Source of the DNA: a virus
Reading direction: 5' to 3' (one strand)
Virus record (IMG/VR): IMGVR_UViG_3300009108_000751
Coordinates: 1-64,000 of that record
Length of the DNA stretch: 64,000 nt
Shown here: piece by piece, positions 1-13,597 of the stretch
How the letters are laid out: each line of letters begins with the position of its first letter
Numbering within the stretch: the stretch's first letter is position 1
Translations under genes and position numbers: made by a program
The notes under the pieces: model-generated
The model's database searches: none
What the model was told of the DNA's origin: nothing
Seen by the model: the letters and a program-made list of their open reading frames with translations, nothing else

Positions 1-1
1 G

Positions 2-655
2 GTTAACGCTTCCGCCGAATACCAGGTGAACGAGATGGATCCGGCACTTCGTGACCGCTTCTTCATCGTAGATCTGGAACCCACCACCGAGGATTGGCTC
101 GAGTGGGCTAAGGATCGCTTGGACGGTGCACTCTGCGAGTTCATCCGACAGAACCCACAACACTTGGAATGCCGGGAGAATGTTGAGGCAGATCGCATCA
201 CTCCTTCCCGCCGCTCTTGGGAGCGCGTCAATCACGCACTGGTCAATGCCAATGTGACGGACAAGCCCGAGGATCCGCTCTTCTACCCGCTCTGCCTCGG
301 CTTGGTCGGTGCAGAAGCTTCGATCGCCTACACGGAGTTCGTCAAGAAGTTCGACCGCCAGATCTCGGCAGAGGATATTCTGGACAAGTGGGGTAACAAG
401 GTCAAAGCTAAGGTGAAGGCTGCTCCTCAAGAGCAACTCAACGGTGTCGTCGAAAAGGTGGTTGACCACGCGGAAAACGGTGACTGGACCCAGAAGCAAG
501 TTGACAACGCGTTCAAGTTCATGAAGTCTCTTCCTGGTGAGTTGGTTATCTCAATGTGGACCAAGATCACGGATCGCAACTTCAAGAACGCCCAGAAGCT
601 TCACAAGCAATGCTCTCAGCTCCTGCTCGAAGTGATCGGTGAAACGAACAACTAA
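2..655 (+). CDS. MoxR-like AAA+ ATPase, C-terminal part (5' end outside window)
   Basis: The reading frame is open to the left edge, so only about 217 C-terminal residues are present. The first visible residues include EYQVNEMDPALRDRF, matching the post-sensor-1/arginine-finger stretch of MoxR-type AAA+ ATPases (ldpALrdRF); Walker A and B would lie upstream. The rest is the helical lid and a long C-terminal tail. MoxR ATPases usually act with VWA-domain partners in chaperone-like or metal-insertion remodelling, and a VWA/metallopeptidase gene lies 0.6 kb downstream. The family call is from motif recognition; the substrate is unknown. Confidence 0.7.
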   Translation, partial: VNASAEYQVNEMDPALRDRFFIVDLEPTTEDWLEWAKDRLDGALCEFIRQNPQHLECRENVEADRITPSRRSWERVNHALVNANVTDKPEDPLFYPLCLGLVGAEASIAYTEFVKKFDRQISAEDILDKWGNKVKAKVKAAPQEQLNGVVEKVVDHAENGDWTQKQVDNAFKFMKSLPGELVISMWTKITDRNFKNAQKLHKQCSQLLLEVIGETNN

Positions 656-656
656 G

Positions 657-887
657 ATGAGTCACGTTGGAGAACCCGAGGGCGAGATTCCTCAGAACAT
701 TTCCTCCGAACCCTCGGGTTCTCCTTTCGTGCCCGGCGACTTAGTCCTTGTAAAGGATACGGCGCAGCAGGGCACGATCACACGTATTCCCTCCCAGTAC
801 TACTCGGAGGTTCACGTGAATGGCCGGAGGATGATGATGCCTAATGAGTGGCTCACGCGGTGTAACTCGGAAAGCCCAGGGTTATAA
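657..887 (+). CDS. small basic protein, possible SH3-like/KOW fold
   Basis: A 76-residue protein starting one base after the stop of the MoxR-like gene. A GTG at 639 in the same frame would give six extra residues, but ATG 657 avoids the overlap. The middle (VPGDLVLVKDTAQQGTITRI) has the spacing of a small beta-barrel SH3/KOW-like domain, which is an inference. Its TAA stop (885-887) lies inside the -10 box of the next promoter. No function assigned. Confidence 0.6.
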   Translation: MSHVGEPEGEIPQNISSEPSGSPFVPGDLVLVKDTAQQGTITRIPSQYYSEVHVNGRRMMMPNEWLTRCNSESPGL

Positions 888-888
888 T
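860..888 (+). promoter_or_regulatory. GTGTAA/TATAAT promoter 1
   Basis: GTGTAA at 860-865, 17-bp spacer, TATAAT at 883-888, then AAGCG. It drives the gene at 908. The -10 contains the stop codon of the preceding gene. Confidence 0.85.
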
Positions 889-907
889 ATAAGCGCAAGG
901 AGGAAAC

Positions 908-1219
908 ATGCAGATTGGCGATCTTATCAAGCCCAAGATGCACCTGGAAGCGCTTAGAGAACCGCATAGAGAGGATCACGGCTTACTTGAAGTGCACACA
1001 CGTTGGGAAGATCCTAAGAAGGAGTTTAAGATTCTCAATAGTCACTCAGGCGAGTTGCATGCGGTTGCGATGATTGTCGGCACGGAACGTGTCCGCAGGC
1101 GCGATCGGCGCAATAAGTCAGGTATCGCGATGATGGTACCCAAGATCAAGTTGCTCATCGGCGGTCAAGTTGCTTTGATCACCAAGGGCAAGTTGGAACA
1201 CCTGTTTGAACCGGTGTAA
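908..1219 (+). CDS. hypothetical protein, 103 aa
   Basis: Starts at ATG 908 behind a strong AGGAGG (898-903) and directly follows promoter 1, so it opens its own transcript. It is basic, with an arginine-rich stretch (VRRRDRRNK) in the second half. No known domain recognised. Its TAA stop is the last three bases of the next GTGTAA box, so the gene end and the next promoter are fused. It sits just upstream of the metallopeptidase/VWA gene. Confidence 0.7.
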   Translation: MQIGDLIKPKMHLEALREPHREDHGLLEVHTRWEDPKKEFKILNSHSGELHAVAMIVGTERVRRRDRRNKSGIAMMVPKIKLLIGGQVALITKGKLEHLFEPV

Positions 1220-1242
1220 CTCTAAAACAGTATAGATATAAT
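1214..1242 (+). promoter_or_regulatory. GTGTAA/TATAAT promoter 2
   Basis: GTGTAA 1214-1219, 17-bp spacer, TATAAT 1237-1242, then AAGGGCG. The TAA of the -35 box is the stop codon of the upstream gene. Drives the metallopeptidase/VWA gene. Confidence 0.85.
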
Positions 1243-1260
1243 AAGGGCGAAGGAGGCTTC

Positions 1261-2583
1261 ATGGCCAAGAAAGAATCAACCGGCGATCTTCCTAAAGCAG
1301 TTCAGGACTACATGGACAAGCTTAAGGTTTCGGCGGAAGAATACGCTCAAAAGGTAGAGGACGCTAAGTCTTTTGACATTGATCCTCACTTGGTTAAGCT
1401 CATGTGGGACGAACCGTTTTATAGCGCTATTAGCCGCCGGATCAGCAAGTCAAGAAGCCTTGACCTCCCGACCGCCGGCGTCTGTGTGATCGATGGTTCA
1501 CCTAGTCTGCTCTGGAACCCGGTCTTCTTCAACGAGATGACTGAGAAAGAGGTGCGCGGTGTCCTGATCCACGAGTTCATGCACTTGATCTACGACCACG
1601 TGACGCTGAGGAAGCGGGATCCCCACATGCTGTGGAACCTGGCCACCGACTGCGCGATCAATAGCATGATCCCAGAAAGCAACCTACCCGTGGACTGTGT
1701 GTTCCCCGGCAAGATGAACCCCAAGGCGGATCCCACCGACCCGATCTGGAATGCGATCGCCTCCTTCCCGAAAGGCCAGAGCTCTGACTGGTACATGAGC
1801 CGGCTGATGGAAGACGAGGACGTCCAGCAGAAGATGGAGGATATCCAGAACGGTGAGGGTGACGCAGCGGAATACGGCTTCGATGACCACGAGGGTTGGG
1901 GCGACATGAGTGACGCTGAGAAGGAGCTGGTGAAAGGCAAGATCCGCGAGATCCTGCGGGACGCGGTGAAGGAAGCTGACGCCAAGAACGGCTGGGGTTC
2001 GGTTCCCTCCGACTGCCGCGAGCAACTGCGCTCAATGGTGAGTAATGAGGTGGACTGGAAAGCGATCCTCCGGCAAACCATTGGCATGGCGCACAGCTCC
2101 GAGCGTACCACCTCCCGCAAGCGGCGCAACCGGAAGTACCGGTTCATGCATCCCGGCGTGAAACGCAAACGGATGGCGCGCGTCCTCGTCGCGATCGATC
2201 AATCGGGCTCCGTGGGTAATGAAGCCCTCGAGCTCCTGTTCGGTGAGCTGGCGTCCCTCGCAAAGCGAGTTGACTTCGACATCGTGCACTTCGACACCTC
2301 CGTGGATGAGAAGAGCCTGACCACCTGGCGGCGCGGACAACGCATCGCGCCCCACCGCACGCGGATGGGTGGTACCGACTTCAACGCTCCCACCGAGTTC
2401 GTCAACAAGCACAAGGGCCAATACGACCTGATGGTGGTGCTCACTGACGGTGAAGCTCCGGAGCCCAAGCCGTGCCTCGTGCGTCGAGCCTGGATCCTCG
2501 TCCCTGGAACCTCGATGTACTTCGACACCCCTGAGACGGTGATCAAGATGAAAGCTGAGAAAGATAAAAAGAATGCTGCGTGA
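1261..2583 (+). CDS. putative metallopeptidase fused to VWA-like domain (DUF2201 type)
   Basis: A 440-residue protein behind AGGAGG. The N-terminal half carries a zinc-peptidase HExxH motif (HEFMHLIYDH, His104/Glu105/His108) followed by WNLATDCAIN, the layout of predicted metallopeptidases of the DUF2201 group. The C-terminal domain is VWA-like, with a MIDAS DQSGS (313-317), a GGTDF further on and a VVLTDG strand. In bacteria such proteins are encoded with a MoxR-type ATPase, and one ends 0.6 kb upstream. The domain call is firm; the role (protein processing, or metal-dependent complex assembly) is inferred from that pairing. Confidence 0.85.
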   Translation: MAKKESTGDLPKAVQDYMDKLKVSAEEYAQKVEDAKSFDIDPHLVKLMWDEPFYSAISRRISKSRSLDLPTAGVCVIDGSPSLLWNPVFFNEMTEKEVRGVLIHEFMHLIYDHVTLRKRDPHMLWNLATDCAINSMIPESNLPVDCVFPGKMNPKADPTDPIWNAIASFPKGQSSDWYMSRLMEDEDVQQKMEDIQNGEGDAAEYGFDDHEGWGDMSDAEKELVKGKIREILRDAVKEADAKNGWGSVPSDCREQLRSMVSNEVDWKAILRQTIGMAHSSERTTSRKRRNRKYRFMHPGVKRKRMARVLVAIDQSGSVGNEALELLFGELASLAKRVDFDIVHFDTSVDEKSLTTWRRGQRIAPHRTRMGGTDFNAPTEFVNKHKGQYDLMVVLTDGEAPEPKPCLVRRAWILVPGTSMYFDTPETVIKMKAEKDKKNAA

Positions 2584-2806
2584 TCTGAGAGATTCTGTTT
2601 GGCACGCCGGCGTGGTGGTTGCCACCGTCAGCTTGAGTGCCGCTTTTCTGGGCGGGATCGGCCTGATCCTGGTTCGAGAAGCTTACCGTGACTGGAAGGG
2701 TGAGAAGATCAAGCCCATCAAAGTGTGGGAGGAGAAGAAGTGGCCCGACAGGGTGATGAAGACTCTTGCTGACGAGGATCCTAAGTCCGGATTGGATGTG
2801 CTATGA
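2573..2806 (+). CDS. small single-pass membrane protein, 77 aa
   Basis: Starts at ATG 2573 and overlaps the end of the VWA gene by 11 bases. Residues about 11-34 (VVVATVSLSAAFLGGIGLIL) form one hydrophobic segment, followed by a basic cytoplasmic-looking tail. It is the first of four consecutive tiny membrane proteins. Such clusters in phages often hold holin, spanin or superinfection-exclusion functions, but nothing specific is recognisable. Confidence 0.65.
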   Translation: MLRDLRDSVWHAGVVVATVSLSAAFLGGIGLILVREAYRDWKGEKIKPIKVWEEKKWPDRVMKTLADEDPKSGLDVL

Positions 2807-2913
2807 TGTGGATTGCTGAGATTGCGATGTGGGTTCTGGCGACCCTGCTCATCACGGGCGGCTTCGCCGCGATCATCGCTAACGCGTTCTTTGGCTACCC
2901 TGACGGAGATTGA
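2803..2913 (+). CDS. tiny membrane protein, 36 aa
   Basis: ATG 2803 overlaps the TGA of the preceding gene in ATGA style, suggesting translational coupling. The 36-residue product is nearly all one hydrophobic helix (WVLATLLITGGFAAIIANAF) and ends in a short acidic tail. No family recognised. Confidence 0.5.
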   Translation: MMWIAEIAMWVLATLLITGGFAAIIANAFFGYPDGD

Positions 2914-2914
2914 C

Positions 2915-3001
2915 GTGCCCGTATGGCTCAACCACACCCTGATGGTTCTGGTCTGTGTCGCAGCATATGTCTTCTCCTTTCTAACACTTTACAAAACTTG
3001 A
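2915..3001 (+). CDS. tiny membrane protein, 28 aa, GTG start
   Basis: GTG 2915 lies six bases after a GGAG (2905-2908), which decides the start; the frame continues upstream but without a good ribosome site. The 28 residues are a single membrane span (LMVLVCVAAYVFSFLTLY). Third in a coupled row of small membrane genes. Real translation is plausible but unproven. Confidence 0.45.
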   Translation: MPVWLNHTLMVLVCVAAYVFSFLTLYKT

Positions 3002-3008
3002 TGAGATT

Positions 3009-3398
3009 ATGACCCTTTTAGAAACACTTGCTTTCTTGTTCGCAATTGCCTATCACGTCCTGATTGCCTGGTTCGGCATCACTACCCTGATCTGGATCTT
3101 TTGGGAACGTCGTACAGTCCGACCGCTGGAAGCCCGGATCAATCGGCTCGATTATGAGATCGAGGAGATCGAGGGGCACGACTTCATGCGAGGTGAGACC
3201 CCTGAAAGCCGAGCGCTACGCAAAGCACGAGACATCGATAAGCTGGCCATGAACGACGAGGAGGAGCGGATCGACAAGTTCCTGCGCAAGTGGGGCTTCT
3301 TTCGCGTGTTCTACCGCGACCCCTACTCCCGCTCAGCAACCCGTTACACCCGAGAACGCCAACGGCTACAAAAGAGCCTTGGCATTGTAGATTCCTGA
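3009..3398 (+). CDS. membrane-anchored protein with charged coiled tail, 129 aa
   Basis: The N-terminus (about residues 3-30, LAFLFAIAYHVLIAWFGITT) is one membrane span. About 95 highly charged, probably helical residues follow (RINRLDYEIEEIE, then DEEERIDKFLRKW). This is the layout of an N-anchored protein with a cytoplasmic or periplasmic helical domain. It starts seven bases after the previous stop. No family recognised. Confidence 0.65.
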   Translation: MTLLETLAFLFAIAYHVLIAWFGITTLIWIFWERRTVRPLEARINRLDYEIEEIEGHDFMRGETPESRALRKARDIDKLAMNDEEERIDKFLRKWGFFRVFYRDPYSRSATRYTRERQRLQKSLGIVDS

Positions 3399-3429
3399 GA
3401 GACACAGTATGATCACCAAAGGAGATCTG

Positions 3430-3720
3430 ATGATCGAAGATAAAGAAGAGCCCCAGATCCGAGACCTGAAGGCGTTGATGGATAAGTGCGGAGACAGCCT
3501 TCCCACACCATGGGACCGCGATTGGGGTGCAGCCTCACCGAGTTACCCATGGCACGTATACGTGGTGTCTCAAGGTCAGAAACCGCACCGCATCTGGTCC
3601 TTCAAGGATCGCCAGAGCGCGCACGATCTGGCTAAGAAGAACCTGCCGACTTACCGCAAGTCCGGAGGCTTCGTGATGGTGCACAACTACCTCACTGGTA
3701 AGTCGATCACGCTCAAATGA
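3430..3720 (+). CDS. hypothetical protein, 96 aa
   Basis: ATG 3430 is chosen over ATG 3409 because AAAGGAG (3418-3424) lies at the right distance for 3430. Soluble, with an acidic N-terminus and an aromatic centre (SYPWHVYVVSQG), otherwise unrecognised. Its stop overlaps the tilS start in ATGA, so the two are probably translated together. Confidence 0.65.
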   Translation: MIEDKEEPQIRDLKALMDKCGDSLPTPWDRDWGAASPSYPWHVYVVSQGQKPHRIWSFKDRQSAHDLAKKNLPTYRKSGGFVMVHNYLTGKSITLK

Positions 3721-4328
3721 TCAAGCTGCTTAGTAAGCTTCCTTGGTCTTTCACGCTCGCCGTCTCCGGCGGGCCTGACTCTATGGCGGCACTCGACTTC
3801 TTCCATCGAGGCAAGAAGGACTTTAGGGTTGTCCACGTTAATCACGGCACAGTGCACGCATCCGAAGCTGAAGAACTGGTAAGGTCTGAGTGCGCACGTC
3901 TCCAGGTGAACTTGCGCGTAGAGAAGGTCATTCGAAAGCGAGACCTGCAGGAGAGCTGGGAAGAGTTCTGGCGCAACGAGCGCTACCGGATCTTCGACAC
4001 AGTCACAGGTCCTGTGCTCACCTGTCACAACCTTGACGACGCGGTCGAGTGGTGGGTTTACACAGCAATGCATGGCCGGCCGCGACTTATTCCCGAGCGC
4101 AACGGCTCCGTGATCCGACCTTTCCTGCTCACTCCCAAGAAGACGCTGAGGAAGTGGTGCAAGGATCACGACGTTGCCTTCTGCGACGATCCGGGCAATG
4201 TCAATGAACAATATATGAGATCCATCGTTCGCCACCAGATAGTGCCTCTGGGCAAGCGGGTCAATCCGGGCCTGGAAAAGGTCGTGAAGAAGATGCTGAT
4301 CGCGCAACACGGCGCGGTGGGCAAGTGA
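3717..4328 (+). CDS. tilS: minimal tRNA(Ile)-lysidine synthetase, PP-loop domain only
   Basis: TilS uses ATP and lysine to turn C34 of tRNA-Ile2 (anticodon CAU) into lysidine, switching it from methionine/AUG to isoleucine/AUA. Motifs in order: PP-loop SGGPDS (17-22), HVNHG (40-44), NERY (87-90), CHNLDDAVE (103-111) and DDPGNVNEQYMRS (157-169) with the Arg-rich helix after it, all typical of the TilS N-terminal catalytic domain. At 203 residues it lacks the C-terminal tRNA-binding domains of cellular enzymes (about 300-470 residues). A tRNA-Ile2(CAU) gene lies 870 bp downstream, strongly suggesting enzyme and substrate travel together. The family call is firm; activity of the short form is inferred. 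Confidence 0.88.
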   Translation: MIKLLSKLPWSFTLAVSGGPDSMAALDFFHRGKKDFRVVHVNHGTVHASEAEELVRSECARLQVNLRVEKVIRKRDLQESWEEFWRNERYRIFDTVTGPVLTCHNLDDAVEWWVYTAMHGRPRLIPERNGSVIRPFLLTPKKTLRKWCKDHDVAFCDDPGNVNEQYMRSIVRHQIVPLGKRVNPGLEKVVKKMLIAQHGAVGK

Positions 4329-4609
4329 GCGAACTCCAAGAAGGGCGACCTGAGGTTGAGCCGGGTGACTTGATCGTGTTCGAGGACGGCACCGATCACC
4401 CGTCAAACTTTCTGGTATGTGAGATCTGCAGGGACAAGGGCGATAGACCAGTACTGCGGGGATTATGGAATAGCGACACCGGCCAGATGGGCGCAGTGCT
4501 TCGAGGTTACGCTGAAGTCATGACTGCCGACATGCTCAAGCAGCACTTTCTAACTCGGTCTACCGACAAGTGGATCCGGGAAGACAAGATCCTGAGGATC
4601 TGGGGATGA
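4325..4609 (+). CDS. hypothetical protein, 94 aa, GTG start
   Basis: GTG 4325 overlaps the tilS stop by four bases (GTGA), implying coupled translation. The sequence starts acidic (EVEPGDLIVFEDGTDHPS) and contains two cysteines three residues apart (CEIC), possibly a metal site or chance. No family recognised; the overlap with tilS is the only functional hint. Confidence 0.6.
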   Translation: MSELQEGRPEVEPGDLIVFEDGTDHPSNFLVCEICRDKGDRPVLRGLWNSDTGQMGAVLRGYAEVMTADMLKQHFLTRSTDKWIREDKILRIWG

Positions 4610-4866
4610 AAATTGAACCGCAAAGCAAGCTAATGCACGCTATCCTGAACGCTGACCGCGTCTTCAAGGGCATTATCGACGGTTCCTACACTCTTACCAC
4701 TGACGGAGGAGTATTTAGATTAGGGCACGGGGAAGACCACTGGCTGTGGAAGGGGCATAATCGAGTAGCCTTCGTAGTTAAACAAGGTGACGAATGGCAC
4801 GTTACAATGCTAGCACCAGAACATATTGACCTACTGGAGGGCCACGATGCTGGAACTACTCCTTAG
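4606..4866 (+). CDS. hypothetical protein, 86 aa
   Basis: ATG 4606 overlaps the TGA of the previous gene. Soluble, with alternating glycine and aromatic residues (GVFRLGHGEDHWLWKGHN) suggesting a small beta-rich fold. No known family. It overlaps the next gene by 20 bases. Confidence 0.55.
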   Translation: MKIEPQSKLMHAILNADRVFKGIIDGSYTLTTDGGVFRLGHGEDHWLWKGHNRVAFVVKQGDEWHVTMLAPEHIDLLEGHDAGTTP

Positions 4867-5152
4867 CCTTGCGTTGACGGCACCGCCGCAATACTATCAT
4901 AAACCCAAACAACCCAAGGCCACTTACCGAAAGGCCGTCCAAAAGCGCCAAGTAGACGGAGTTGTCAGGTATCTCCGCCGGCAAGATCCTGCAGTTATCC
5001 AGCAGGTGATGCGTCGTATGGGCTGGATGTTTCGCACCGAACCGCGGGATGCTTGCCGAAAGAAGAAGAAGTCGGATCTGGAAAAGATCAACGACTGGGA
5101 AATGAGAATGCTGTGTGAAATGGCAGGGCTTCCCTGTTACAAGAAAAGGTAA
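4847..5152 (+). CDS. small exported basic protein, 101 aa
   Basis: ATG 4847 follows GGAGG (4836-4840). The first 13 residues (MLELLLSLALTAP) look like a short signal peptide or membrane anchor, and the mature part is strongly basic (repeated Lys/Arg, three cysteines near the C-terminus). Its end abuts promoter 3, which drives the tRNA. Function unknown; an envelope or periplasmic location is inferred. Confidence 0.6.
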   Translation: MLELLLSLALTAPPQYYHKPKQPKATYRKAVQKRQVDGVVRYLRRQDPAVIQQVMRRMGWMFRTEPRDACRKKKKSDLEKINDWEMRMLCEMAGLPCYKKR

Positions 5153-5181
5153 GTGTAAATCTCCCTCGTGATCGTTATAAT
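5153..5181 (+). promoter_or_regulatory. GTGTAA/TATAAT promoter 3 (tRNA promoter)
   Basis: GTGTAA 5153-5158, 17-bp spacer, TATAAT 5176-5181. The tRNA starts 17 bases after the -10, so this promoter should make the tRNA-Ile2 precursor. Confidence 0.85.
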
Positions 5182-5197
5182 ATAATGTATGAGATAT

Positions 5198-5274
5198 GGG
5201 GGATTAGCTCAATTGGTCAGAGCACTCGACTCATAATCGATAGGTTCTGGGTTCAAGTCCCAGGTCCCCTACCA
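5198..5274 (+). tRNA. tRNA-Ile2 with CAT anticodon (lysidine type)
   Basis: 77 nt with CCA encoded. Acceptor GGGGGAT pairs with GTCCCCT (G1-U72 and U7-G66 wobbles), discriminator A. D-arm GCTC/GAGC, T-arm CTGGG-TTCAAGT-CCCAG. The anticodon loop CTCATAA reads CAT; the surrounding CGACTCATAATCG is the same as in the E. coli minor isoleucine tRNA and unlike initiator or elongator tRNA-Met. It is therefore called Ile2, needing TilS for lysidine at C34. The C27-U43 pair is a mismatch. The phage-borne TilS 870 bp upstream supports the assignment. Confidence 0.88.
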
Positions 5275-5323
5275 ACCAGACCTGAGCACGTCGTCAAACT
5301 GCTCACACGGGAGTTACACAGTC

Positions 5324-5509
5324 ATGGATGTTAGAGCACCCTGTCCTTTCGCCACTTCGATCGCAGCGTATCTCACGTTTCCTAACCCTGGCGCAAAGCC
5401 CAAGGTGTTCGTGACACGTGAGCAGTTGTGTGAGATGAAGTTAGTGGACGCTGAGAAACGCCCAGTGGAACGCAAAGGTTTAGGCGAGAACGTTGATACT
5501 TATGCTTGA
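5324..5509 (+). CDS. hypothetical protein, 61 aa
   Basis: ATG 5324 has a GGGAG about nine bases upstream. Soluble, with a proline-rich middle (FPNPGAKPKVFVTREQL). It could be co-transcribed with the tRNA from promoter 3, since no terminator is evident between them. No family recognised. Confidence 0.5.
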   Translation: MDVRAPCPFATSIAAYLTFPNPGAKPKVFVTREQLCEMKLVDAEKRPVERKGLGENVDTYA

Positions 5510-5598
5510 TGTACGACGAATCCCTTATAGGTGTTATGATGCTGGGCTTTATTGCTTTCGGGATCATGATATCGATGGCGTTTGATGGCGATCTCTGA
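5509..5598 (+). CDS. tiny membrane protein, 29 aa
   Basis: ATG 5509 overlaps the TGA of the previous gene. The product is a single hydrophobic helix (LIGVMMLGFIAFGIMISMAF) with acidic ends. It overlaps the next gene by 14 bases. Typical of phage micro-membrane proteins; function unknown. Confidence 0.4.
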   Translation: MYDESLIGVMMLGFIAFGIMISMAFDGDL

Positions 5599-5899
5599 AG
5601 TACTTCGCCTAAGATACCTCAAGGAACCTGGAGAAGAAATGATGAATGGTGTGACCTACTACACTGTTAGTTATCACATGCAACCGATAGCACACTTCAA
5701 GGATTATAGTGCAGCCGTGAGATTCGCCTCTGAAGAACGTAAGCGTCGGCTTGAGGCAGTCAAAACCCTGGATCCGCCCATGCTAAAGGGTGAAATGCGA
5801 GGAGAAGTTGTCAGCATCAAGTACGGAGTTGCAGTTCAGCAAGTTGATATCGTCTTTGCAGACATGATAGACAGTAGCGAGGAAATCAAGTTTGGCTGA
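5585..5899 (+). CDS. hypothetical protein, 104 aa
   Basis: ATG 5585 is preferred to the in-frame TTG 5582. Soluble alpha/beta-looking protein with a helical, Arg-rich middle (VRFASEERKRRLEAVK). No family recognised. Its last eight bases overlap the next gene. Confidence 0.6.
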   Translation: MAISEVLRLRYLKEPGEEMMNGVTYYTVSYHMQPIAHFKDYSAAVRFASEERKRRLEAVKTLDPPMLKGEMRGEVVSIKYGVAVQQVDIVFADMIDSSEEIKFG

Positions 5900-6179
5900 C
5901 AACACGCGTGCTTTACTAATGCGGGTTTTGACTGGCAAGGGCACAGATCTAGACAAGCTCGACGCAGTTTCTAACTTAATCGCAGAAAAGATGGCGATGT
6001 CCGAAGCAATGTCTGACAAGATAACAGCAGGAAGCTTTGTCCAGGGACACAACGTTCTCAAGCACTTGCTTAGCTTAGATCGTGTTCTCGAGACAATGTC
6101 TCTGATGGAGACTACGGGAGATCACGATGTCCCAGAACTCTGTGTTGTCACTGACGGTGACTGCGTCGGGAAAAACTAA
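5892..6179 (+). CDS. hypothetical helical protein, 95 aa, TTG start
   Basis: TTG 5892 lies behind GAGGA (5879-5883) and overlaps the previous stop by eight bases; ATG 5919 is the alternative. The sequence is mostly amphipathic helix (LDKLDAVSNLIAEKMAMSEAMSD). No family recognised. Confidence 0.55.
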   Translation: MADNTRALLMRVLTGKGTDLDKLDAVSNLIAEKMAMSEAMSDKITAGSFVQGHNVLKHLLSLDRVLETMSLMETTGDHDVPELCVVTDGDCVGKN

Positions 6180-6201
6180 CAAATCAGGCTCAATAGCTCT
6201 T

Positions 6202-6230
6202 GTGTAACATACTTACTAACGTGGTATGAT
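6202..6230 (+). promoter_or_regulatory. GTGTAA/TATGAT promoter 4
   Basis: GTGTAA 6202-6207, 17-bp spacer, TATGAT 6225-6230 (one change from TATAAT). Drives the gene at 6250. Confidence 0.75.
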
Positions 6231-6249
6231 GTACGCGGAGGAAAAAGGT

Positions 6250-6468
6250 ATGGCTTCCTTAAAGCGACAACGAAAAGTTATTAGTCCTCGACAGCGTCCC
6301 CGTCACACCCCACCCAAAGAACTCGTGCTGGAACTACCACTTCCACGTCACGAGAGTATACCCAGGGATCACGACGTTGAAGCGCAAGAAAGCTCGAAAG
6401 AGCAAGGCGAGGTTATCATCAACCTCAACGAAGAAGACGATCCCTGTGTCATCCGTGATGCGTTCTAA
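6250..6468 (+). CDS. basic/acidic low-complexity protein, 72 aa
   Basis: ATG 6250 follows GGAGG and sits just downstream of promoter 4; an upstream in-frame ATG at 6226 overlaps the -10 box and is rejected. The N-terminal half is strongly basic (LKRQRKVISPRQRPRHTPP) and the C-terminal half acidic, as in small disordered nucleic-acid-binding or inhibitor proteins. No family recognised. Confidence 0.55.
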   Translation: MASLKRQRKVISPRQRPRHTPPKELVLELPLPRHESIPRDHDVEAQESSKEQGEVIINLNEEDDPCVIRDAF

Positions 6469-6637
6469 GTTCACCACCGCAGAGATCGAAGAAGTCACTT
6501 TTGAATACCAAAGGATGCTAGATGCCGCGATATCCGACGGCAACAAGAAGAGCATCAATGCCCTAGTCCAAATCATCGCCGACCTTCACGTTTGTGTAAA
6601 ACACGCATCTGATGGTTATAATAAGGATGAAGACTAG
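6458..6637 (+). CDS. hypothetical helical protein, 59 aa
   Basis: ATG 6458 overlaps the end of the preceding gene by 11 bases. Helical and soluble (FTTAEIEEVTFEYQRMLDAA). Its last residues are encoded across promoter 5, so the DNA there serves both as coding sequence and as promoter. No family recognised. Confidence 0.5.
   Translation: MRSKFTTAEIEEVTFEYQRMLDAAISDGNKKSINALVQIIADLHVCVKHASDGYNKDED
6594..6622 (+). promoter_or_regulatory. GTGTAA/TATAAT promoter 5
   Basis: GTGTAA 6594-6599, 17-bp spacer, TATAAT 6617-6622. It lies wholly inside the 3' end of the upstream gene and drives 6647. Confidence 0.85.
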
Positions 6638-6646
6638 GAGATAAAG

Positions 6647-6787
6647 ATGGACGCGATACTCGCTCTCGCTTTACTATTCGGGGTTCCACTACTATCAGCA
6701 CTTTTTATTGTACGTGAGGCGCGCCTTGCGCGCGAGAGGCACGTTGCAAAGCTCCAAGAGGAAAGGGAGAATGAACGATGGATCTGA
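6647..6787 (+). CDS. small N-anchored membrane protein, 46 aa
   Basis: ATG 6647 is preceded by AGGAG. Residues 3-22 (AILALALLFGVPLLSALFIV) are a membrane span, followed by a charged helix (EARLARERHVAKLQEERENE), the layout of a small anchored coiled coil. It overlaps the next gene by ten bases. Function unknown. Confidence 0.55.
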   Translation: MDAILALALLFGVPLLSALFIVREARLARERHVAKLQEERENERWI

Positions 6788-6987
6788 TCCAAGAAGGTAA
6801 TCTGCTCATCCAGCAGGTGACTGACCTGCTCAACGAAGTGAGTCCTGAGAAATGTCCAAGCGGCCCTGAGTTCACTAACTTTCTTGTTGCGAACGCTGAT
6901 CGTCTTCCTACTGACGCGGGCACAATCGTGACGCTCGCTGCAGACCTTGAAGCTCAGTTACTGGAGCACGAAGGCACCGTTCACTGA
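6778..6987 (+). CDS. hypothetical protein, 69 aa
   Basis: ATG 6778, with GGGAGAATG just upstream inside the previous gene. Acidic and helical (LLIQQVTDLLNEVSPEK). No family recognised. Its TGA is one base from promoter 6. Confidence 0.55.
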   Translation: MDLIQEGNLLIQQVTDLLNEVSPEKCPSGPEFTNFLVANADRLPTDAGTIVTLAADLEAQLLEHEGTVH

Positions 6988-6988
6988 T

Positions 6989-7017
6989 GTGTAAGTTCGA
7001 AGCGCTGAGTATATAAT
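6989..7017 (+). promoter_or_regulatory. GTGTAA/TATAAT promoter 6
   Basis: GTGTAA 6989-6994, 17-bp spacer, TATAAT 7012-7017, then ATCAGCG. Drives the CxxC protein at 7039. Confidence 0.85.
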
Positions 7018-7038
7018 ATCAGCGATTGGAGGCAAGGC

Positions 7039-7908
7039 ATGGCTAAGAATACTGATATTCAAAGGCAATTGAATGCAATACGCGACGAGATGCGTGCTCT
7101 TCACGACAGGCGGGACGAGCTGGTCGAAATTGCCAAGGCTCGCGGCATTCAGCGCTTTGAGGATGCGAACGGCTGCGAGAGGTGCCGAGGTCGTGGTTGG
7201 GTGGTAACCTGGGACACGATGGACATCCTCGACGGCTCGGCCGCCGATTACGGTGACTGCCCTGAAAAGTCCTGCACTCCGGAAACACGCAAAGCCTCGG
7301 GCCTCTATCCCGAGAATAATCGCTACGATCACAACCGCTACACGACCTGGGCACACTTTCACGATCTGGCTGAAGCTGAGCGTGACGAGTGGTTCGGGAT
7401 CGATCCGCAGCTGACCATCCTCAACGACAGGTATAACAACACTGAGATGGCGGCGCGCCCCACAAAGGGTAAGCTGGTCGAGGTGATCGCCAAGGCGAGG
7501 TCACGCAACTCCGCTGCAGCCGGTGTGGTAGGCAAGGTGTTCTGGTATGGCTGCAATGACTGGGGCACCATCAAGGTCGGCATACTGGATATCGATGGCA
7601 ACAAGCACTGGACAACTGAGAAGTCTGTCACTGTGCTCAAACAGAAAGCCGGGAAGGAATACGATCCGACATACGACGAGCAGTATCCCCTCCTGTGCAA
7701 GGTGGTGCGAAAATCCAACAAAGCGATCTGCGTCATGACGCCCGGGGCGAGTAAGTTCACCGGCGGTGAGTGGATCCCGTGGTCGCAGATCCTCAATGCT
7801 GATCAGGTTCGAGAACAGATCGGCAATAAGCTTCTGAAGGATGGTTGCCCGGCGACTGTGATGTTACCACCCTGGTTAGCCAAGAAGAAGGGTTACATTC
7901 GTGGCTGA
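7039..7908 (+). CDS. CxxCxGxG-containing protein, 289 aa
   Basis: The N-terminus is a short coiled coil (MRALHDRRDELVEIAKARG). Next comes CERCRGRGW (about residues 49-57) and a second cysteine pair (CPEKSC) some 25 residues later, forming a DnaJ-like zinc knuckle. The remaining 180 residues look like a beta-rich domain without recognised family. Such knuckles occur in phage proteins that bind nucleic acids or unfolded proteins. One of the larger genes of this region, with its own promoter. Confidence 0.6.
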   Translation: MAKNTDIQRQLNAIRDEMRALHDRRDELVEIAKARGIQRFEDANGCERCRGRGWVVTWDTMDILDGSAADYGDCPEKSCTPETRKASGLYPENNRYDHNRYTTWAHFHDLAEAERDEWFGIDPQLTILNDRYNNTEMAARPTKGKLVEVIAKARSRNSAAAGVVGKVFWYGCNDWGTIKVGILDIDGNKHWTTEKSVTVLKQKAGKEYDPTYDEQYPLLCKVVRKSNKAICVMTPGASKFTGGEWIPWSQILNADQVREQIGNKLLKDGCPATVMLPPWLAKKKGYIRG

Positions 7909-8128
7909 GAAAACTCGGCACTATGAGAAGCAGGTTGCGGTGATCATGCCTCGCTGGTGCATCAACATGATTCTCGACCATCTCGATATGCAGTATGACT
8001 CGCTGCAGCAAGAGCAGGACTTCCACAACCGAGTGGGCGATACAAAGTCCCTTGCCAGTGCTCAGGACGAGCTCAAGCTTTACAGTGACGCGATCGACCA
8101 GATCGCAGGCCAACTGGACAATAGCTAA
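7901..8128 (+). CDS. hypothetical helical protein, 75 aa, GTG start
   Basis: GTG 7901 overlaps the end of the preceding gene by eight bases. Mostly amphipathic helix (CINMILDHLDMQYDSLQQEQ). No family recognised; probably co-translated with the CxxC protein. Confidence 0.55.
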   Translation: MAEKTRHYEKQVAVIMPRWCINMILDHLDMQYDSLQQEQDFHNRVGDTKSLASAQDELKLYSDAIDQIAGQLDNS

Positions 8129-8159
8129 ACATTCTCACTTTTCGATTTACAATGACCTC

Positions 8160-8345
8160 ATGGGTAATGGCGTCAAGATAGATCTGAAGGTGGGTGACTG
8201 GATCCTCACGGGCAGATTCAAGAACAAACGAGAAATGGTAAAGACCATCGGCGTTGATCAGCTGGGACAACCCACTGTTAACGGGAAGCCGATGTTGAAG
8301 TTTCGTATTGCGAAGACAATACCCGAAGGGAAGAAGAAAAAGTGA
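8160..8345 (+). CDS. small basic protein, 61 aa
   Basis: ATG 8160 begins a frame with a small beta-barrel look (IDLKVGDWILTGRFKNKREM) and a lysine-rich tail ending in KKKK. No clear ribosome site precedes it, so the start is uncertain. Its stop overlaps the next gene (GTGA). Possibly nucleic-acid binding, by charge only. Confidence 0.5.
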   Translation: MGNGVKIDLKVGDWILTGRFKNKREMVKTIGVDQLGQPTVNGKPMLKFRIAKTIPEGKKKK

Positions 8346-8725
8346 TTGCTACACTGGTGACGATTCTAGCAGCTGCGCCGTTTACTACTTACGTAGATTG
8401 CTCGAACATCGTGGGCTACGATGAGAAGAAGAACGCGTATCTTATGAAGTGCACGTTAGCAGTAGGAGGAGAAGACAAGTCTAAGGCGAATCTGATTCCA
8501 GTCTACTGCATCATGGACCTCAAGGAAAGCGCTTTCATGTGTAAGTTTGATCTAAAGCCTAAGAGCAACTCAGATAACGCTCCCCGCGGTCACACAGGAT
8601 GGTTACCACAACTCCCGCCGGGCGCCGTTTTGCGATCCATCGTTCAGCAGCAAGAACGTTTGCTCCAGCCGATATGCCCACCAGCAGTCCATTCTCCTGA
8701 GCTAAACGACGAGCTCTCTCAATAG
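8342..8725 (+). CDS. exported cysteine-containing protein, 127 aa, overlapping cysK
   Basis: GTG 8342 overlaps the previous stop by four bases. Residues 1-12 (MIATLVTILAAA) resemble a signal peptide, and four cysteines follow (DC, KC, YC, MC), pointing to a periplasmic, disulphide-bonded product. The last 55 codons run antisense through the 3' end of the cysteine synthase gene (8559-8725), so this tail is probably not conserved. Either the overlap is real or the original end was lost when cysK inserted. Confidence 0.5.
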   Translation: MIATLVTILAAAPFTTYVDCSNIVGYDEKKNAYLMKCTLAVGGEDKSKANLIPVYCIMDLKESAFMCKFDLKPKSNSDNAPRGHTGWLPQLPPGAVLRSIVQQQERLLQPICPPAVHSPELNDELSQ

Positions 8726-9434
8726 CATCTGCTGTCGACACCTTCATGACATCATCCATCTTGGCGGGGTCGAGCAAGAAGTCCTGACCGTCGTTGATTC
8801 CCTGAATGCCGTGATTCTGCGCATCTTCCTCTGGGACAACTAGCACGCATTTATACGTGAGGAACTTGGACTTTTCCTTGTGCTCCCACATCCCCATCAT
8901 TGTTCCCCCGGTACCTGCTCCACCCACGAAACCTGACCATGTCATGGTGGATTCTAGCTGAAGGTGAATCTCTGGGCCCGTGGTTTCCCGATGACACGCT
9001 ACGTTGTCGAGGTTCTCAAATTGCATCGGTGACCAGACATCTCCACCGGTGAGCATCATTTGGTCTCTCAAAGCGATTGCTGCCTCGAAGTCACTGTGTC
9101 CCACCTCGACCACTTCTGCACCAAAAGCACGCATCATCTGCTTGCGCTCCTCGCTCATGTTGCACGGCATGATGATCTTCACGGGATTGCCCAACGCTGC
9201 ACCTGCCGCGGCAAGCGCGATGCCCGTGTTGCCTGAGGTGGCTTCGATGAAAGTGGTGTTCTCGCCGAACTCATCGCGCTCCTGTGCACGTTTGACCACG
9301 TACGCGATCATCCGATCCTTGATGCTGCCAGTGGGGTTGTAAGTTTCCAGCTTGGCGTACAGCTGCTTGGAGATCTTGACTAGGGGTGTATTCCCAACAT
9401 TAGTGAAGTAACCGTTTTGCTTCATTCTCATCAT
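8559..9434 (-). CDS. cysK: cysteine synthase (O-acetylserine sulfhydrylase family)
   Basis: PLP enzyme making cysteine from O-acetylserine and sulphide. Visible motifs: NPTGSIKDR with the PLP lysine K39, substrate loop TSGNTG (66-71), QFENLDNVACHRETTGPEI (138-156), phosphate-binding GGAGTGGT (171-178) and GISAGAN (253-259). 291 residues is slightly short of the usual 300-320. It is the only reverse-strand metabolic gene in the left half and no GTGTAA promoter serves it. Three start ATGs are clustered (9434, 9431, 9425). A cargo metabolic gene is inferred; the CysK/CysM distinction and the true sulphur donor cannot be settled from sequence. Confidence 0.88.
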   Translation of the reverse strand: MMRMKQNGYFTNVGNTPLVKISKQLYAKLETYNPTGSIKDRMIAYVVKRAQERDEFGENTTFIEATSGNTGIALAAAGAALGNPVKIIMPCNMSEERKQMMRAFGAEVVEVGHSDFEAAIALRDQMMLTGGDVWSPMQFENLDNVACHRETTGPEIHLQLESTMTWSGFVGGAGTGGTMMGMWEHKEKSKFLTYKCVLVVPEEDAQNHGIQGINDGQDFLLDPAKMDDVMKVSTADAIERARRLAQENGLLVGISAGANVLAAERWIAKRRPAGVVVTILCDRGERYLSCS

Positions 9435-9492
9435 CCTTGAGAATAACTATACTCGCGAACTCAAAGGAGTATAATAGAGTAAAGGAGGCACA

Positions 9493-10197
9493 ATGTCATA
9501 CTTGGGATATGTAAAGCTCATGACAGCGCACTGCAAAGCGTTTGCAAACCCTACGATCTTAGAGGTCGGAGTCGACAGGGGTCAAACCGCGCTTCCCTTG
9601 ATATCCAACTTGCTCCGCTTATCGAGAGACTTCCGGTACGTTGGCGTCGACATAAGGCATGAACCGTGCTTCAGTGAGCAAATATCTCAGATGGAAGGCG
9701 TCAAGACATACCTGGGAGATAACAACCCGGACTTCAACGTCGCCTACACGATAGAAAACAGCCTGGATATTTTGCCCAACCTTGCAAAAGCAGGTAACAA
9801 GTTTGACCTAATCTTGATAGACGGAGATCATAACTACGGTACCGTCAAGCAAGAGCTATCCTACTTGAACGATCTTTCACACACTCACACAATGGTGATC
9901 TGTGACGACTATCGAGGGCGACACGAGAATAACGACAACTTCTACAAAGATTACGAGTCACACAAAAGTATCGATACCTTTATCGACGTTGAGATTCACC
10001 CGTCTAAAAAAGGCGCCAACCAGGCGATCGATGAGTGGCTAGAGGAACAAGAAGGAAAGTGGTGGGCATACAAGCCGCCTCAGTATGAGCCCATCTTTCT
10101 TTGTGGAAGCGGGATTCTACGTCTCCAGTCGGACGAGCACCCCCGCGGGTTTTCACAACAGGACTACGTGATCACTTACCGCGAACCAGAATCCTAA
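9493..10197 (+). CDS. class I SAM-methyltransferase-fold protein (Methyltransf_24-like)
   Basis: 234 residues behind AAAGGAGG and a TATAAT (9470-9475) that lacks the GTGTAA partner. Motif I is ILEVGVDRGQTA (about 20-31), the second acidic strand is YVGVDIR, and DLILIDGDHNYGTVKQEL followed by MVICDDY forms motifs IV-V. This is the pattern of small-molecule or glycan methyltransferases. Related genes occur at 18214, 41474 and 50243. Substrate unknown. Confidence 0.7.
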   Translation: MSYLGYVKLMTAHCKAFANPTILEVGVDRGQTALPLISNLLRLSRDFRYVGVDIRHEPCFSEQISQMEGVKTYLGDNNPDFNVAYTIENSLDILPNLAKAGNKFDLILIDGDHNYGTVKQELSYLNDLSHTHTMVICDDYRGRHENNDNFYKDYESHKSIDTFIDVEIHPSKKGANQAIDEWLEEQEGKWWAYKPPQYEPIFLCGSGILRLQSDEHPRGFSQQDYVITYREPES

Positions 10198-10321
10198 CGC
10201 TTATCTTGCCGGGAGCTCATAATAAAATCTTCTATACTACTAACACCTATAGCGCATAGATAGACGCACGCTATAGCGCACACACCTCAGACCGGCCATG
10301 CGATCCCTGCGTTCTGTGTCA

Positions 10322-10389
10322 TTTTAGCCAACGCGGGCACGTAAGCCGTTTTAGCGAACGCGCACGTCTACGTCATTTTAGCGAACGCG
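10322..10389 (+). repeat. three direct iterons TTTTAGCGAACGCG, 27-bp period
   Basis: Copies at 10322-10335 (TTTTAGCCAACGCG, one change), 10349-10362 and 10376-10389 are spaced exactly 27 bp. Shortened relatives follow: TTTAGGCGAGCG (10399), TTTAGGCCAGCG (10412), TTTTAGCGAA (10491) and TTTTAGAGAGCG (10515). Regular spacing of about 2.5 helical turns suggests cooperative binding by a replication or packaging protein. Confidence 0.75.
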
Positions 10390-10428
10390 TACGCGCGGTT
10401 TAGGCGAGCGGTTTAGGCCAGCGACGCA

Positions 10429-10642
10429 CAGCAGTGGACATTTGTAATCCCCTCCCATATAAGCGAAGGGCAGTGGTCATCGGGCTACCGTTTTAGCGAA
10501 AGTCTGCGCTGTCATTTTAGAGAGCGATTTTAGTCCCGTGACCACTGCTGCTCTACTTAGGCCCCGCGCGCGCCCTTGATGTCACGTTTTGTCTCTCATT
10601 GTCTCATTTTGTCTCTCGAAGACGCAGTCGGACCCACTGCTG
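10429..10642 (+). repeat. CAGCAGTGG / CCACTGCTG inverted repeats
   Basis: CAGCAGTGG (10429-10437) and GCAGTGGTCA (10470-10479) face TGACCACTGC (10539-10548) and CCACTGCTG (10542-10550, 10634-10642). The 10470/10539 pair is a perfect 10-bp inverted repeat with a 59-nt loop containing one partial iteron. Confidence 0.65.
10587..10617 (+). repeat. TTTTGTCTCTC direct pair
   Basis: TTTTGTCTCTC at 10587-10597 and 10607-10617, a 20-bp period, with an intervening ATTGTCTCA half copy. Part of the non-coding repeat block. Confidence 0.5.
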
Positions 10643-10879
10643 CCAGTCACTCACTGCAAATAAAATGTATAAGCAGTTGTACATTATGTCCACTCACTTT
10701 CTCTCAAATAGAGATGAACATTCCCTATAGCGGGGGTACAATATGAACATAGGTTACCTGAGGGAGATCGAGTGATGGCCCTCGACGATCGCGCAGGCCA
10801 GCGTGTGACTCGTGCACTCGTCTCTCCCTCGCTATAGCGCAACCCATTCAAGCGAGCCACCGCCGGTTCGAGCGAGGTA

Positions 10880-11083
10880 GTGTTGATCAATCTAACTGAT
10901 GAAGAGCTCGACGAGATATCGACTTACACAGGTTTGGATATCGCAATGCAGTACCCGCTCGATGCCACGCCCATCATATTCTTCAGTCATGACGGTCAAG
11001 GCGCCGTCAAGTTCGTCACGGTTCTCAAAGATGCTCCGATCGGCTCAGAGTCGGTGTGTAAGTGGGAGGGGGATGGTTTATAA
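10880..11083 (+). CDS. hypothetical acidic protein, 67 aa, GTG start
   Basis: GTG 10880 has GAGG three bases upstream; TTG 10883 is also possible. Acidic (LTDEELDEISTYTGLD) with a beta-strand-rich second half. The TAA stop lies in the -10 box of promoter 7 and the last nine codons are promoter DNA. No family recognised. Confidence 0.55.
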   Translation: MLINLTDEELDEISTYTGLDIAMQYPLDATPIIFFSHDGQGAVKFVTVLKDAPIGSESVCKWEGDGL

Positions 11084-11084
11084 T
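11056..11084 (+). promoter_or_regulatory. GTGTAA/TATAAT promoter 7
   Basis: GTGTAA 11056-11061, 17-bp spacer, TATAAT 11079-11084. It lies inside the end of the upstream gene, whose stop codon is within the -10. Drives 11113 through a leader carrying CCTGGGGAGG. Confidence 0.85.
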
Positions 11085-11112
11085 AGCCGTGAATAAAGCC
11101 TGGGGAGGCACG

Positions 11113-11682
11113 ATGAAAGTAGAAGTTTACAAGAAGTATCGGCACGGCAAGACCTACGTCTCAGGCGAGCTCAAGGGAGCGGGTGTTTACGACTCTGATC
11201 CGGATCTCGAAGTTGATGGGATCGTGTATCCTCACCGTGATCGCGCCATGCTCATGCTCACTGAAGCTGGTGACAGGGGCGAACTGGTCCTCCAGCTCAT
11301 GCTCAGTGAAGCTCAAGTCGACCACCTGAGGGACGTGCTCTATGAGGTGAGTAAGCAGATGATGGTGGATCGGAACCGGCGAGAGCTGGAGGCAGGACAC
11401 GCCCGACAAAAGCGTGTAAGCGCGGAAGAGGCCGGTTATAATAGGGGTGAAGATAACGGAGACGACTTCATGAAGCCTAAACTCTACTCTTTCAAGTTTC
11501 ACCGCAACGAGTTCGGGGATGTTGGCTTCAACCAGATCATGGCCCCAAGCCTTGAGCACGCCATCGAGTTCGCTAAGGACGAGTTCGAAGGTGGAACCGC
11601 AAATCTCAAGGTTGACGTTGACACCTTCAAGGTGGTCGAAGACGTGAACGCTTACTACAACTCATTCCCGCTGATGGATTAG
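11113..11682 (+). CDS. hypothetical protein, 189 aa; apparent in-frame read-through of two small genes
   Basis: ATG 11113 follows CCTGGGGAGG. The first about 100 residues form one unit with a Leu-rich helix (LVLQLMLSEAQVDHLRDVL). The frame then runs without a stop through promoter 8 (encoding KRVSAEEAGYNRG) into what looks like a separate 70-residue gene starting at 11470. In neighbouring genes the promoter or the bases just before it supply a stop, so this is either a natural fusion or loss of a stop. Both units are unrecognised. Confidence 0.55.
   Translation: MKVEVYKKYRHGKTYVSGELKGAGVYDSDPDLEVDGIVYPHRDRAMLMLTEAGDRGELVLQLMLSEAQVDHLRDVLYEVSKQMMVDRNRRELEAGHARQKRVSAEEAGYNRGEDNGDDFMKPKLYSFKFHRNEFGDVGFNQIMAPSLEHAIEFAKDEFEGGTANLKVDVDTFKVVEDVNAYYNSFPLMD
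11414..11442 (+). promoter_or_regulatory. GTGTAA/TATAAT promoter 8 (internal to a coding frame)
   Basis: GTGTAA 11414-11419, 17-bp spacer, TATAAT 11437-11442. The upstream frame passes through it without stopping. Drives the start at 11470. Confidence 0.8.
11470..11682 (+). CDS. nested small protein, 70 aa, from internal start
   Basis: ATG 11470 has GGAG (11459-11462) and its own promoter 8, so this C-terminal part of the 11113 frame is probably made separately. Sequence: MKPKLYSFKFHRNEFGDVGF, then a helix (SLEHAIEFAKDEF) and an acidic tail. The start resembles other one-domain proteins of this cluster that follow a promoter. No family recognised. Confidence 0.55.
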   Translation: MKPKLYSFKFHRNEFGDVGFNQIMAPSLEHAIEFAKDEFEGGTANLKVDVDTFKVVEDVNAYYNSFPLMD

Positions 11683-11691
11683 GAGAAAGCC

Positions 11692-11922
11692 ATGCAGCTC
11701 GCACACGCTCAAGCGATCGTTGAAGAACTTACACAGACTTTAGGTGTTGAAGCCTCTGTTCGAGAGAACTACTCGGGTCGAGGCATGTATGGCCGTACGA
11801 CCGCGGCGGTCAGCACTCACTACTCGGAAGATGTCGTCGCCGCTGCGCGCGATCTCGGCCTTCCGCTCCGTCGCTCCAACCTCAACGTTGACAGCATGGG
11901 CTTGGGCAAGGTGGTTTACTAG
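11692..11922 (+). CDS. hypothetical protein, 76 aa
   Basis: ATG 11692 behind AGGAG. The helix-strand pattern (AQAIVEELTQTLGVEASVRE) and Gly/Tyr/Arg-rich middle (ENYSGRGMYGRTT) suggest a small nucleic-acid-binding or ferredoxin-like fold, inference only. Followed by a decayed GTGTAA box (11925) without a -10, then promoter 9. Confidence 0.55.
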   Translation: MQLAHAQAIVEELTQTLGVEASVRENYSGRGMYGRTTAAVSTHYSEDVVAAARDLGLPLRRSNLNVDSMGLGKVVY

Positions 11923-11961
11923 TGGTGTAAGTCGTTCGACTCTCACGACGACCCAAGAGCT

Positions 11962-11990
11962 GTGTAAGTTCCGGGGCAGCCTGGTATAAT
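11962..11990 (+). promoter_or_regulatory. GTGTAA/TATAAT promoter 9
   Basis: GTGTAA 11962-11967, 17-bp spacer, TATAAT 11985-11990, then ATCCACG. Its leader (GTAAAGAACAAAGCC) is repeated after promoter 10. Confidence 0.85.
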
Positions 11991-12024
11991 ATCCACGTAA
12001 AGAACAAAGCCTAAGGGGCGCAAC

Positions 12025-12354
12025 ATGGCAACCGGCATCTTCATTCCCAAGCGCGAGATCACCGAAGCTATTCAGCGACACTGTGACCGCATTCAAGAAG
12101 AGCTTAGCAACTCCTTCGATATCGGTGACCCAGTTCAGGCCAGGCACGGTCGGGCACTGTGGGACGCTCAGGTCGAGATTGCTCGAGACAGGCTGGAAGC
12201 CAGAATGGAACAAGCCTTGGGCACTGCGGTGGACGACATCATCGTGGAGCTCGACGACGGTGAGTTCTTCGCTCAAGCAGCGCAAGCAATTGACGAGGAG
12301 GAGACCATTCCCGGTGTCCAACAGCTGTCGGAGTTGTGTAAGCCGCAGCGCTGA
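12025..12354 (+). CDS. hypothetical helical protein, 109 aa
   Basis: ATG 12025, leader shared with the gene at 12398. Long amphipathic helices (EITEAIQRHCDRIQEELSNS; EIARDRLEARMEQAL) and an acidic C-terminal third. The last codons cross promoter 10. No family recognised. Confidence 0.6.
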   Translation: MATGIFIPKREITEAIQRHCDRIQEELSNSFDIGDPVQARHGRALWDAQVEIARDRLEARMEQALGTAVDDIIVELDDGEFFAQAAQAIDEEETIPGVQQLSELCKPQR

Positions 12355-12364
12355 GTGTTATAAT
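12336..12364 (+). promoter_or_regulatory. GTGTAA/TATAAT promoter 10
   Basis: GTGTAA 12336-12341, 17-bp spacer, TATAAT 12359-12364, then ATCCACG. Overlaps the end of the upstream gene. Confidence 0.85.
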
Positions 12365-12397
12365 ATCCACGTAAAGAACAAAGCCTGGGGAGGCAAT

Positions 12398-12721: not shown

Positions 12722-12722
12722 T

Positions 12723-12751
12723 GTGTAACTCCAAGGGCAGCTGGTTATAAT
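12723..12751 (+). promoter_or_regulatory. GTGTAA/TATAAT promoter 11
   Basis: GTGTAA 12723-12728, 17-bp spacer, TATAAT 12746-12751, then ATAAACG. Drives the RadA-like ATPase. Confidence 0.85.
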
Positions 12752-12790
12752 ATAAACGAAGAAAACGCAAACAACCTGGGGAGGTTCTAA

Positions 12791-13588: not shown

Positions 13589-13597
13589 GGGTCTTGT

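Follow-up and report, generated by a model that had tools for sequence, protein, structure and literature searches.

Lysidine at a single base of a tRNA sets both the amino acid that the tRNA carries and the codon that it reads, and the bacterial tRNA(Ile2) lysidine synthetases (TilS) are thought to need their C-terminal domains for telling tRNA-Ile2 from tRNA-Met. Two classes of TilS have been described – type I, in which the N-terminal domain (NTD) is followed by CTD1 and CTD2, and type II, with NTD and CTD1; in type I enzymes, residues of CTD2 are needed for lysidinylation, and bacterial enzymes of this type reject tRNA-Met through contacts with the acceptor stem (PMC12514573).

Both the enzyme and its substrate have also been met in viruses. 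TilS is encoded by pelagimyophages (PMC7029224), by the Ralstonia phage RsoM2USA (349 aa; PMC8504454) and by the Pseudomonas jumbo phage MIJ3, whose TilS was reported in 2019 with no link drawn to its CAU tRNAs (PMC6892783), and chlorovirus TilS has been proposed to raise AUA decoding capacity (PMC7589089). On the substrate side, T4-like phages carry tRNA-Ile2(CAU) (PMC1524935), and lysidine (k2C) is borne by a vibriophage tRNA(CAU), as reviewed in PMC13191261. TilS and tRNA-Ile2 in phages, and the argument from AUA, had thus all been published before (PMC6892783, PMC7029224, PMC8504454, PMC1524935, PMC7589089), and the statement in an earlier, sequence-only reading of the present locus that no such enzyme–substrate pair was described in phages went too far, as genes for each partner had been reported. 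What stands is narrower: in the literature searched (preprints excluded, few subscription papers), we found no description of a one-domain TilS class or of a tilS–tRNA cassette.

The window analysed here – 64,000 nucleotides, the first 64 kb of the 235,681-base virus record IMGVR_UViG_3300009108_000751 – encodes a one-domain TilS with intact motifs and a predicted TilS fold, together with an Ile2-like tRNA (Table 1), and across viral loci the two genes are linked recurrently and in a CAU-specific manner. We consider it highly probable that the protein is a tRNA(Ile2) lysidine synthetase of a viral, one-domain kind whose substrate is the tRNA-Ile2(CAU) encoded by the phage itself, enzyme and tRNA being kept as an AUA-decoding module.

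Since one of its proteins matches phrog_138, a major head protein family of PHROGs, we regard the record as that of a tailed phage; a megablast search with window 30–54 kb found no close phage genomes in GenBank. The G+C content is 52.7% in window 1–20000 vs ~40% at 20–60 kb; this shift marks a mosaic boundary, and the tilS–tRNA pair is on its GC-rich side. Apart from the CAU tRNA, the whole 235.7-kb record contains a tmRNA and a single tRNA-Ser; in 5/91 non-redundant viral TilS loci, too, a tmRNA is present no more than 10 kb away. Relatives of the PALP gene that follows the pair in the window are present in 16 of the TilS loci.

Table 1. Features of the window discussed in the text, with positions counted from its first nucleotide.
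Feature	Position	Strand	Basis
tilS, single-domain tRNA(Ile2) lysidine synthetase (predicted), 203 aa, ATG start	3717..4328	+	TIGR02432, PDB TilS matches, AF2, viral clade
PP-loop motif SGGPDS (residues 17-22), ATP pyrophosphatase site	3765..3782	+	Aligns with S32-S37 of A. aeolicus TilS
HNLDDAVE motif (residues 104-111)	4026..4049	+	H104, D108, E111 = H133, D137, E140 of A. aeolicus TilS
RSIVRH motif (residues 168-173)	4218..4235	+	R172 = R205 of A. aeolicus TilS
Three small overlapping ORFs between tilS and tRNA, outside TilS	4325-4609, 4606-4866, 4847-5152	+	No significant Pfam family
tRNA-Ile2(CAU), encoded CCA, predicted TilS substrate	5198..5274	+	ARAGORN, Rfam; identity features
Anticodon loop CTCATAA, C34 = predicted lysidine site	5230..5236	+	Same loop in 27/27 adjacent cassette tRNAs
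PLP-dependent cysteine-synthase-type enzyme	8559-9434	-	PALP, 2.7e-57
Class-24 methyltransferase, adjoining the PALP gene	9493-10197
Complete one-piece tmRNA gene, tag ANDDFDIYAIAA	34087-34408	+	ARAGORN, Rfam

The 203-aa product passes the TIGR02432 (lysidine_TilS_N) model (101.5 bits, where 93.6 are required), matches Pfam ATP_bind_3 at E=2.2e-30, and finds its only significant PDB sequence matches in the three solved TilS enzymes. Its residues map to A. aeolicus TilS, and so the catalytic motifs picked out in the sequence-only reading are indeed present. The check set for them beforehand – the existence of homologues with intact motifs – also came out positively: across 52 viral sequences the catalytic residues are invariant, with S17, G18, G19, D21 and S22 of the PP-loop fixed (position 20 varies), R168 and R172 likewise, and no variation at H104, D108 and E111. 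We infer that the protein is catalytically active, with the reservation that, as CTD2 is needed in type I enzymes, one devoid of C-terminal domains could be inactive or weak.

An AF2 model of the protein (pLDDT 94.2, pTM 0.90) has TilS structures as its top PDB fold matches (1ni5, 2e89 and 1wy5, TM 0.82-0.84), followed by TtuA at TM 0.68-0.75. The second place of TtuA lends something to the idea of a different PP-loop tRNA enzyme of TilS ancestry, whether a thiolase akin to TtuA or a base modifier of unknown kind; a function away from tRNA, for instance a transcriptional one, can draw on MIJ3, which has TilS together with FtsH and whose authors cite the transcriptional role of TilS–HprT in B. 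subtilis (PMC6892783). Either is very improbable in our view, given that the TilS model is passed whereas those of TtuA and LarE reach ~15 bits, far under their cut-offs, that TilS structures head the fold ranking, and that the association with CAU tRNA described below is specific.

The protein ends at residue 203, where bacterial TilS run on for ~80 to 250 residues (CTD1/CTD2), and judged by its sequence it fits neither of the two described types, having one domain only. The loss of the C-terminal tRNA-binding domains noted earlier is thus confirmed, the next ORFs being likewise without a TilS domain. A split TilS, with the C-terminal domains encoded in the following ORFs, was considered and rejected, as none of the three has a family match. 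The tilS ORF overlaps both flanking ORFs by a few bases.

Relatives of the protein were sought in several collections. A scan of GenBank phages retrieved the PA5oct/MIJ3 group and two megaphages, all at ~42% identity and of near-equal length. PHROGs has no family for the window protein and a single-protein scan of IMG/VR with it returned no relatives; profile scans of IMG/VR returned ~500 each (495 in one). We read 194 of the IMG/VR-relative loci, 193 of them with a complete ORF, and every complete viral TilS (193/193) is single-domain, at 195-240 aa. Among the nearest matches in bacterial genomes, 76 of the 78 complete ones measure 281-458 aa; the two short ones (L101 and L102) fall within the viral clade and have a CAU tRNA 310 and 525 bp from tilS, respectively. 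When 96 viral-type and 25 bacterial rows were placed in one tree, a branch with support 99 set all viral-type TilS apart from the bacterial ones, the viral set having been chosen by similarity to a viral profile, so that other viral TilS families (e.g. the 349-residue RsoM2USA protein) may fall outside it.

The CAU tRNA of the window begins 869 bp downstream of tilS according to ARAGORN and Rfam, in agreement with the ~870 bp first estimated. Its assignment as tRNA-Ile2 had initially been based on the CTCATAA loop, which does not carry that weight: the loop is common to the fMet, elongator Met and Ile2 tRNAs of E. coli, and cannot alone identify Ile2. Other identity features do favour it. The elements of bacterial isoleucine identity – A73, U12-A23 and C29-G41 (PMC9976931) – can all be read from positions 5198-5274, and A37 and A38 are present alongside the CAU anticodon. 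The methionine determinants U4-A69 and A5-U68 are absent, as are the initiator features C1xA72 and a GGG:CCC stem. The determinants C4-G69/C5-G68 of the E. coli enzyme are replaced by G4-C69 and G5-C68, and these determinants are reported not to be conserved outside gamma-proteobacteria (PMC12069591). By overall identity, the tRNA body is closest to phage tRNA-Ile(GAU) (83-84%), followed by E. coli Ile2 (78%), elongator Met (75%) and fMet (73%), and a model of the cassette tRNAs scores E. coli Ile2 at 85 bits, Met-e at 79.7 and fMet at 54. The features of the body would thus favour isoleucine. Folded alone, the tRNA has an uninformative z of -1.5; no sigma-70 consensus promoter of its own was found, a result at chance level.

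That the two genes form a unit is supported by their arrangement elsewhere, counted on 91 non-redundant loci (clusters at 90% identity). The distance between tilS and a CAU tRNA is at most 50 bp in 26/91, at most 150 bp in 29/91, at most 1 kb in 37/91 and at most 10 kb in 54/91, and when clustering is done at 50% identity, 10/20 clusters have one within 50 bp. All 29 CAU tRNAs within 150 bp are on the tilS strand (22 downstream, 7 upstream). The proximity is a matter of anticodon: CAU accounts for 27/45 tRNAs within 60 bp of tilS vs 31/299 of those farther away (odds ratio 13, p=7e-13), and in one locus with 40 tRNAs in 20 kb (L082), three of them CAU, the one adjoining tilS is Ile2-type. The first base of the tRNA abuts the tilS stop codon in three loci (L055, L060 and L065), and in two more the 3′ end of the tilS ORF shares 39 bases with the tRNA gene (L051 10583-10657, L086 10601-10677), so that releasing the tRNA would sever the message for TilS, possibly as a form of built-in regulation. 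On the tree, adjacency was gained or lost no fewer than 16 times, so the linkage is not one inherited accident. Around 78 bacterial tilS genes taken as a control, a CAU tRNA occurs within 3 kb in 6, the nearest at 1.26 kb. The pairing of enzyme and substrate first proposed for the window alone hence recurs, often with direct adjacency, in many viral lineages.

The linkage has its exceptions. In 37/91 clusters, many of them short contigs, no CAU tRNA was found within the flanks examined; among larger TilS-bearing records one is present somewhere in 20-21/25, and in three sizeable records it was absent at the threshold used. A clade of ~21 viral TilS (L075, L085, L092, L209 and others) has no CAU tRNA nearby; some larger members (G005, G007 and G008) have a distant one, and in others none was found. 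At least one TilS-bearing megaphage also has a tRNA-Ile(UAU), which reads AUA without lysidine.

In the window itself the pair is non-adjacent, with three ORFs intervening, and in its nearest neighbours on the tree (L038, L021, L024 and L101) the tRNA is 0.3-1.2 kb from tilS. The window tRNA is identical at 77/77 positions to the one that overlaps tilS in L086/L090/L091; the TilS of L086 is only 39% identical to that of the window. Replication-type genes at window 26-31 kb are common to L086-group phages, and tilS and the tRNA, at 3.7-5.3 kb, lie away from them.

The 869 bp that separate the two genes in the window would suit ordinary cargo, with tilS and the tRNA as separate passengers of a variable region, the tRNA modified by host TilS and the short protein decaying or redundant. 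Such an arrangement has parallels in T4 and like phages, which have tRNA-Ile2 with no TilS reported (PMC1524935), and in the lysidine present on a vibriophage tRNA(CAU) (PMC13191261). We consider it improbable here, for a decaying or redundant passenger sits poorly with catalytic residues that stay the same throughout 52 diverged sequences, with a length uniform in 193/193, and with an adjacency that is CAU-specific and has seen many gains or losses.

How an enzyme of one domain would recognize its tRNA was approached by comparing the 27 distinct adjacent CAU tRNAs with 272 other phage tRNAs from the same loci. At 27-43, a G-C or C-G pair is present in 2/27 of the former vs 110/272 of the latter (p=6e-4) and a non-Watson-Crick one in 15/27 vs 47/272 (p=3e-5), the adjacent tRNAs not being phylogenetically independent; a G27xU43 pair is one reported determinant of E. 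coli TilS (PMC12069591). The 4-69 pair, in turn, is G-C in 12/21 and C-G in 8/21 adjacent cassette tRNAs. Retention of the loop and of a weak 27-43 pair, but not of the acceptor-stem determinants, fits a reading of the anticodon arm, and independence from the acceptor stem is what the absence of CTD2 leads one to expect. Without CTD1 and CTD2, the enzyme most likely reads the anticodon arm only.

The same missing domains are those by which type I TilS reject tRNA-Met (PMC12514573), which gives some footing to a quite different substrate: the one-domain enzyme might mainly lysidinylate the host elongator or initiator tRNA-Met, throttling or reprogramming host translation, with the neighbouring tRNA incidental. 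This is improbable, since it leaves the over-representation of Ile2-type CAU tRNAs beside tilS unexplained – 23/27 adjacent ones are nearer E. coli Ile2 than Met tRNAs, 4/27 being nearer elongator Met – and the window tRNA retains the isoleucine features A73, U12-A23, C29-G41, A37 and A38. The phage's own tRNA-Ile2 would accordingly remain the probable substrate of choice.

What the module is for bears on codon usage. The share of AUA among codons rises from 0.72% over the first 20 kb to ~2% at 20-80 kb, and is 13.8 of 1000 over the whole record, so the rightward increase in AUA described in the sequence-only reading is real; it does not exceed the expectation from base composition. AUA provides 22.8% of isoleucine codons vs 33.9% expected from fourfold-degenerate sites, and enrichment of AUA was rejected, since none of the 20-kb bins reaches the usage predicted from fourfold sites. 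AUA use thus follows base composition; should the host rarely use AUA, the phage would have a genuine need to decode it. Hosts normally possess their own TilS. Considering this, and the lysidine on a vibriophage tRNA(CAU), the benefit of a phage-borne enzyme that had been argued for cannot be an absolute need; rather, supply or specificity would be what matters.

We propose that the enzyme uses ATP to activate the anticodon base C34 and then attaches lysine, and that the tRNA bearing lysidine at C34 would be charged with isoleucine rather than methionine and would read AUA in place of AUG. Enzyme and substrate tRNA, kept together as a module and probably co-transcribed in many relatives, would secure AUA decoding during infection independently of the supply or specificity of host TilS, and herein would lie any gain in fitness. 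A broader proposal, which we hold slightly likelier to be right than wrong, is that these proteins form a third TilS class, exclusive to viruses as sampled, which has shed every domain that reads the tRNA body, recognizes the anticodon arm only and moves across many phage lineages in one AUA-decoding cassette with the tRNA that it modifies. Widespread viral TilS without C-terminal domains make the minimal need for Ile2/Met discrimination directly testable, and as the same enzyme is carried by the cultured phages MIJ3, PA5oct and Callisto, such a test is practical. A recurring cassette of enzyme and tRNA would show that phages carry whole decoding modules, beyond tRNA genes, which bears on why phages carry tRNAs at all.

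Set against known systems, the window protein shares its catalytic domain, motifs and fold with bacterial TilS (PDB 3a2k, 1ni5 and 1wy5), which differ in possessing CTD1 or CTD1+CTD2, in a sampled length of 281-458 aa and in having no CAU tRNA adjacent. Chlorovirus TilS resembles it in the role in AUA decoding proposed for it; it belongs to a virus of a eukaryotic alga and was proposed to act on tRNA-Met (PMC7589089). The T4-like and vibriophage tRNAs(CAU) represent phage tRNAs of the lysidine type, for which the two papers cited describe no linked phage TilS (PMC1524935, PMC13191261); conversely, the pelagimyophage and RsoM2USA papers do not link TilS to a phage tRNA-Ile2 (PMC7029224, PMC8504454), and the RsoM2USA enzyme is two-domain in size, unlike the one-domain form of the window. 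In the MIJ3/PA5oct group (Wroclawvirus), TilS is likewise a one-domain protein of 203 aa, 42-43% identical to that of the window, although several kb lie between the tRNA cluster and tilS in MIJ3 and its authors annotated the CAU tRNAs as tRNA-Met and, where we see AUA decoding, suggested a function in host viability (PMC6892783). Two of the MIJ3 CAU tRNAs have Ile2-type features, with 87.1 and 79.6 bits by the cassette model: the "tRNA-Met" genes at 6831-6907 and 7312-7388 look like Ile2, and the one at 9442-9518 is initiator-like.
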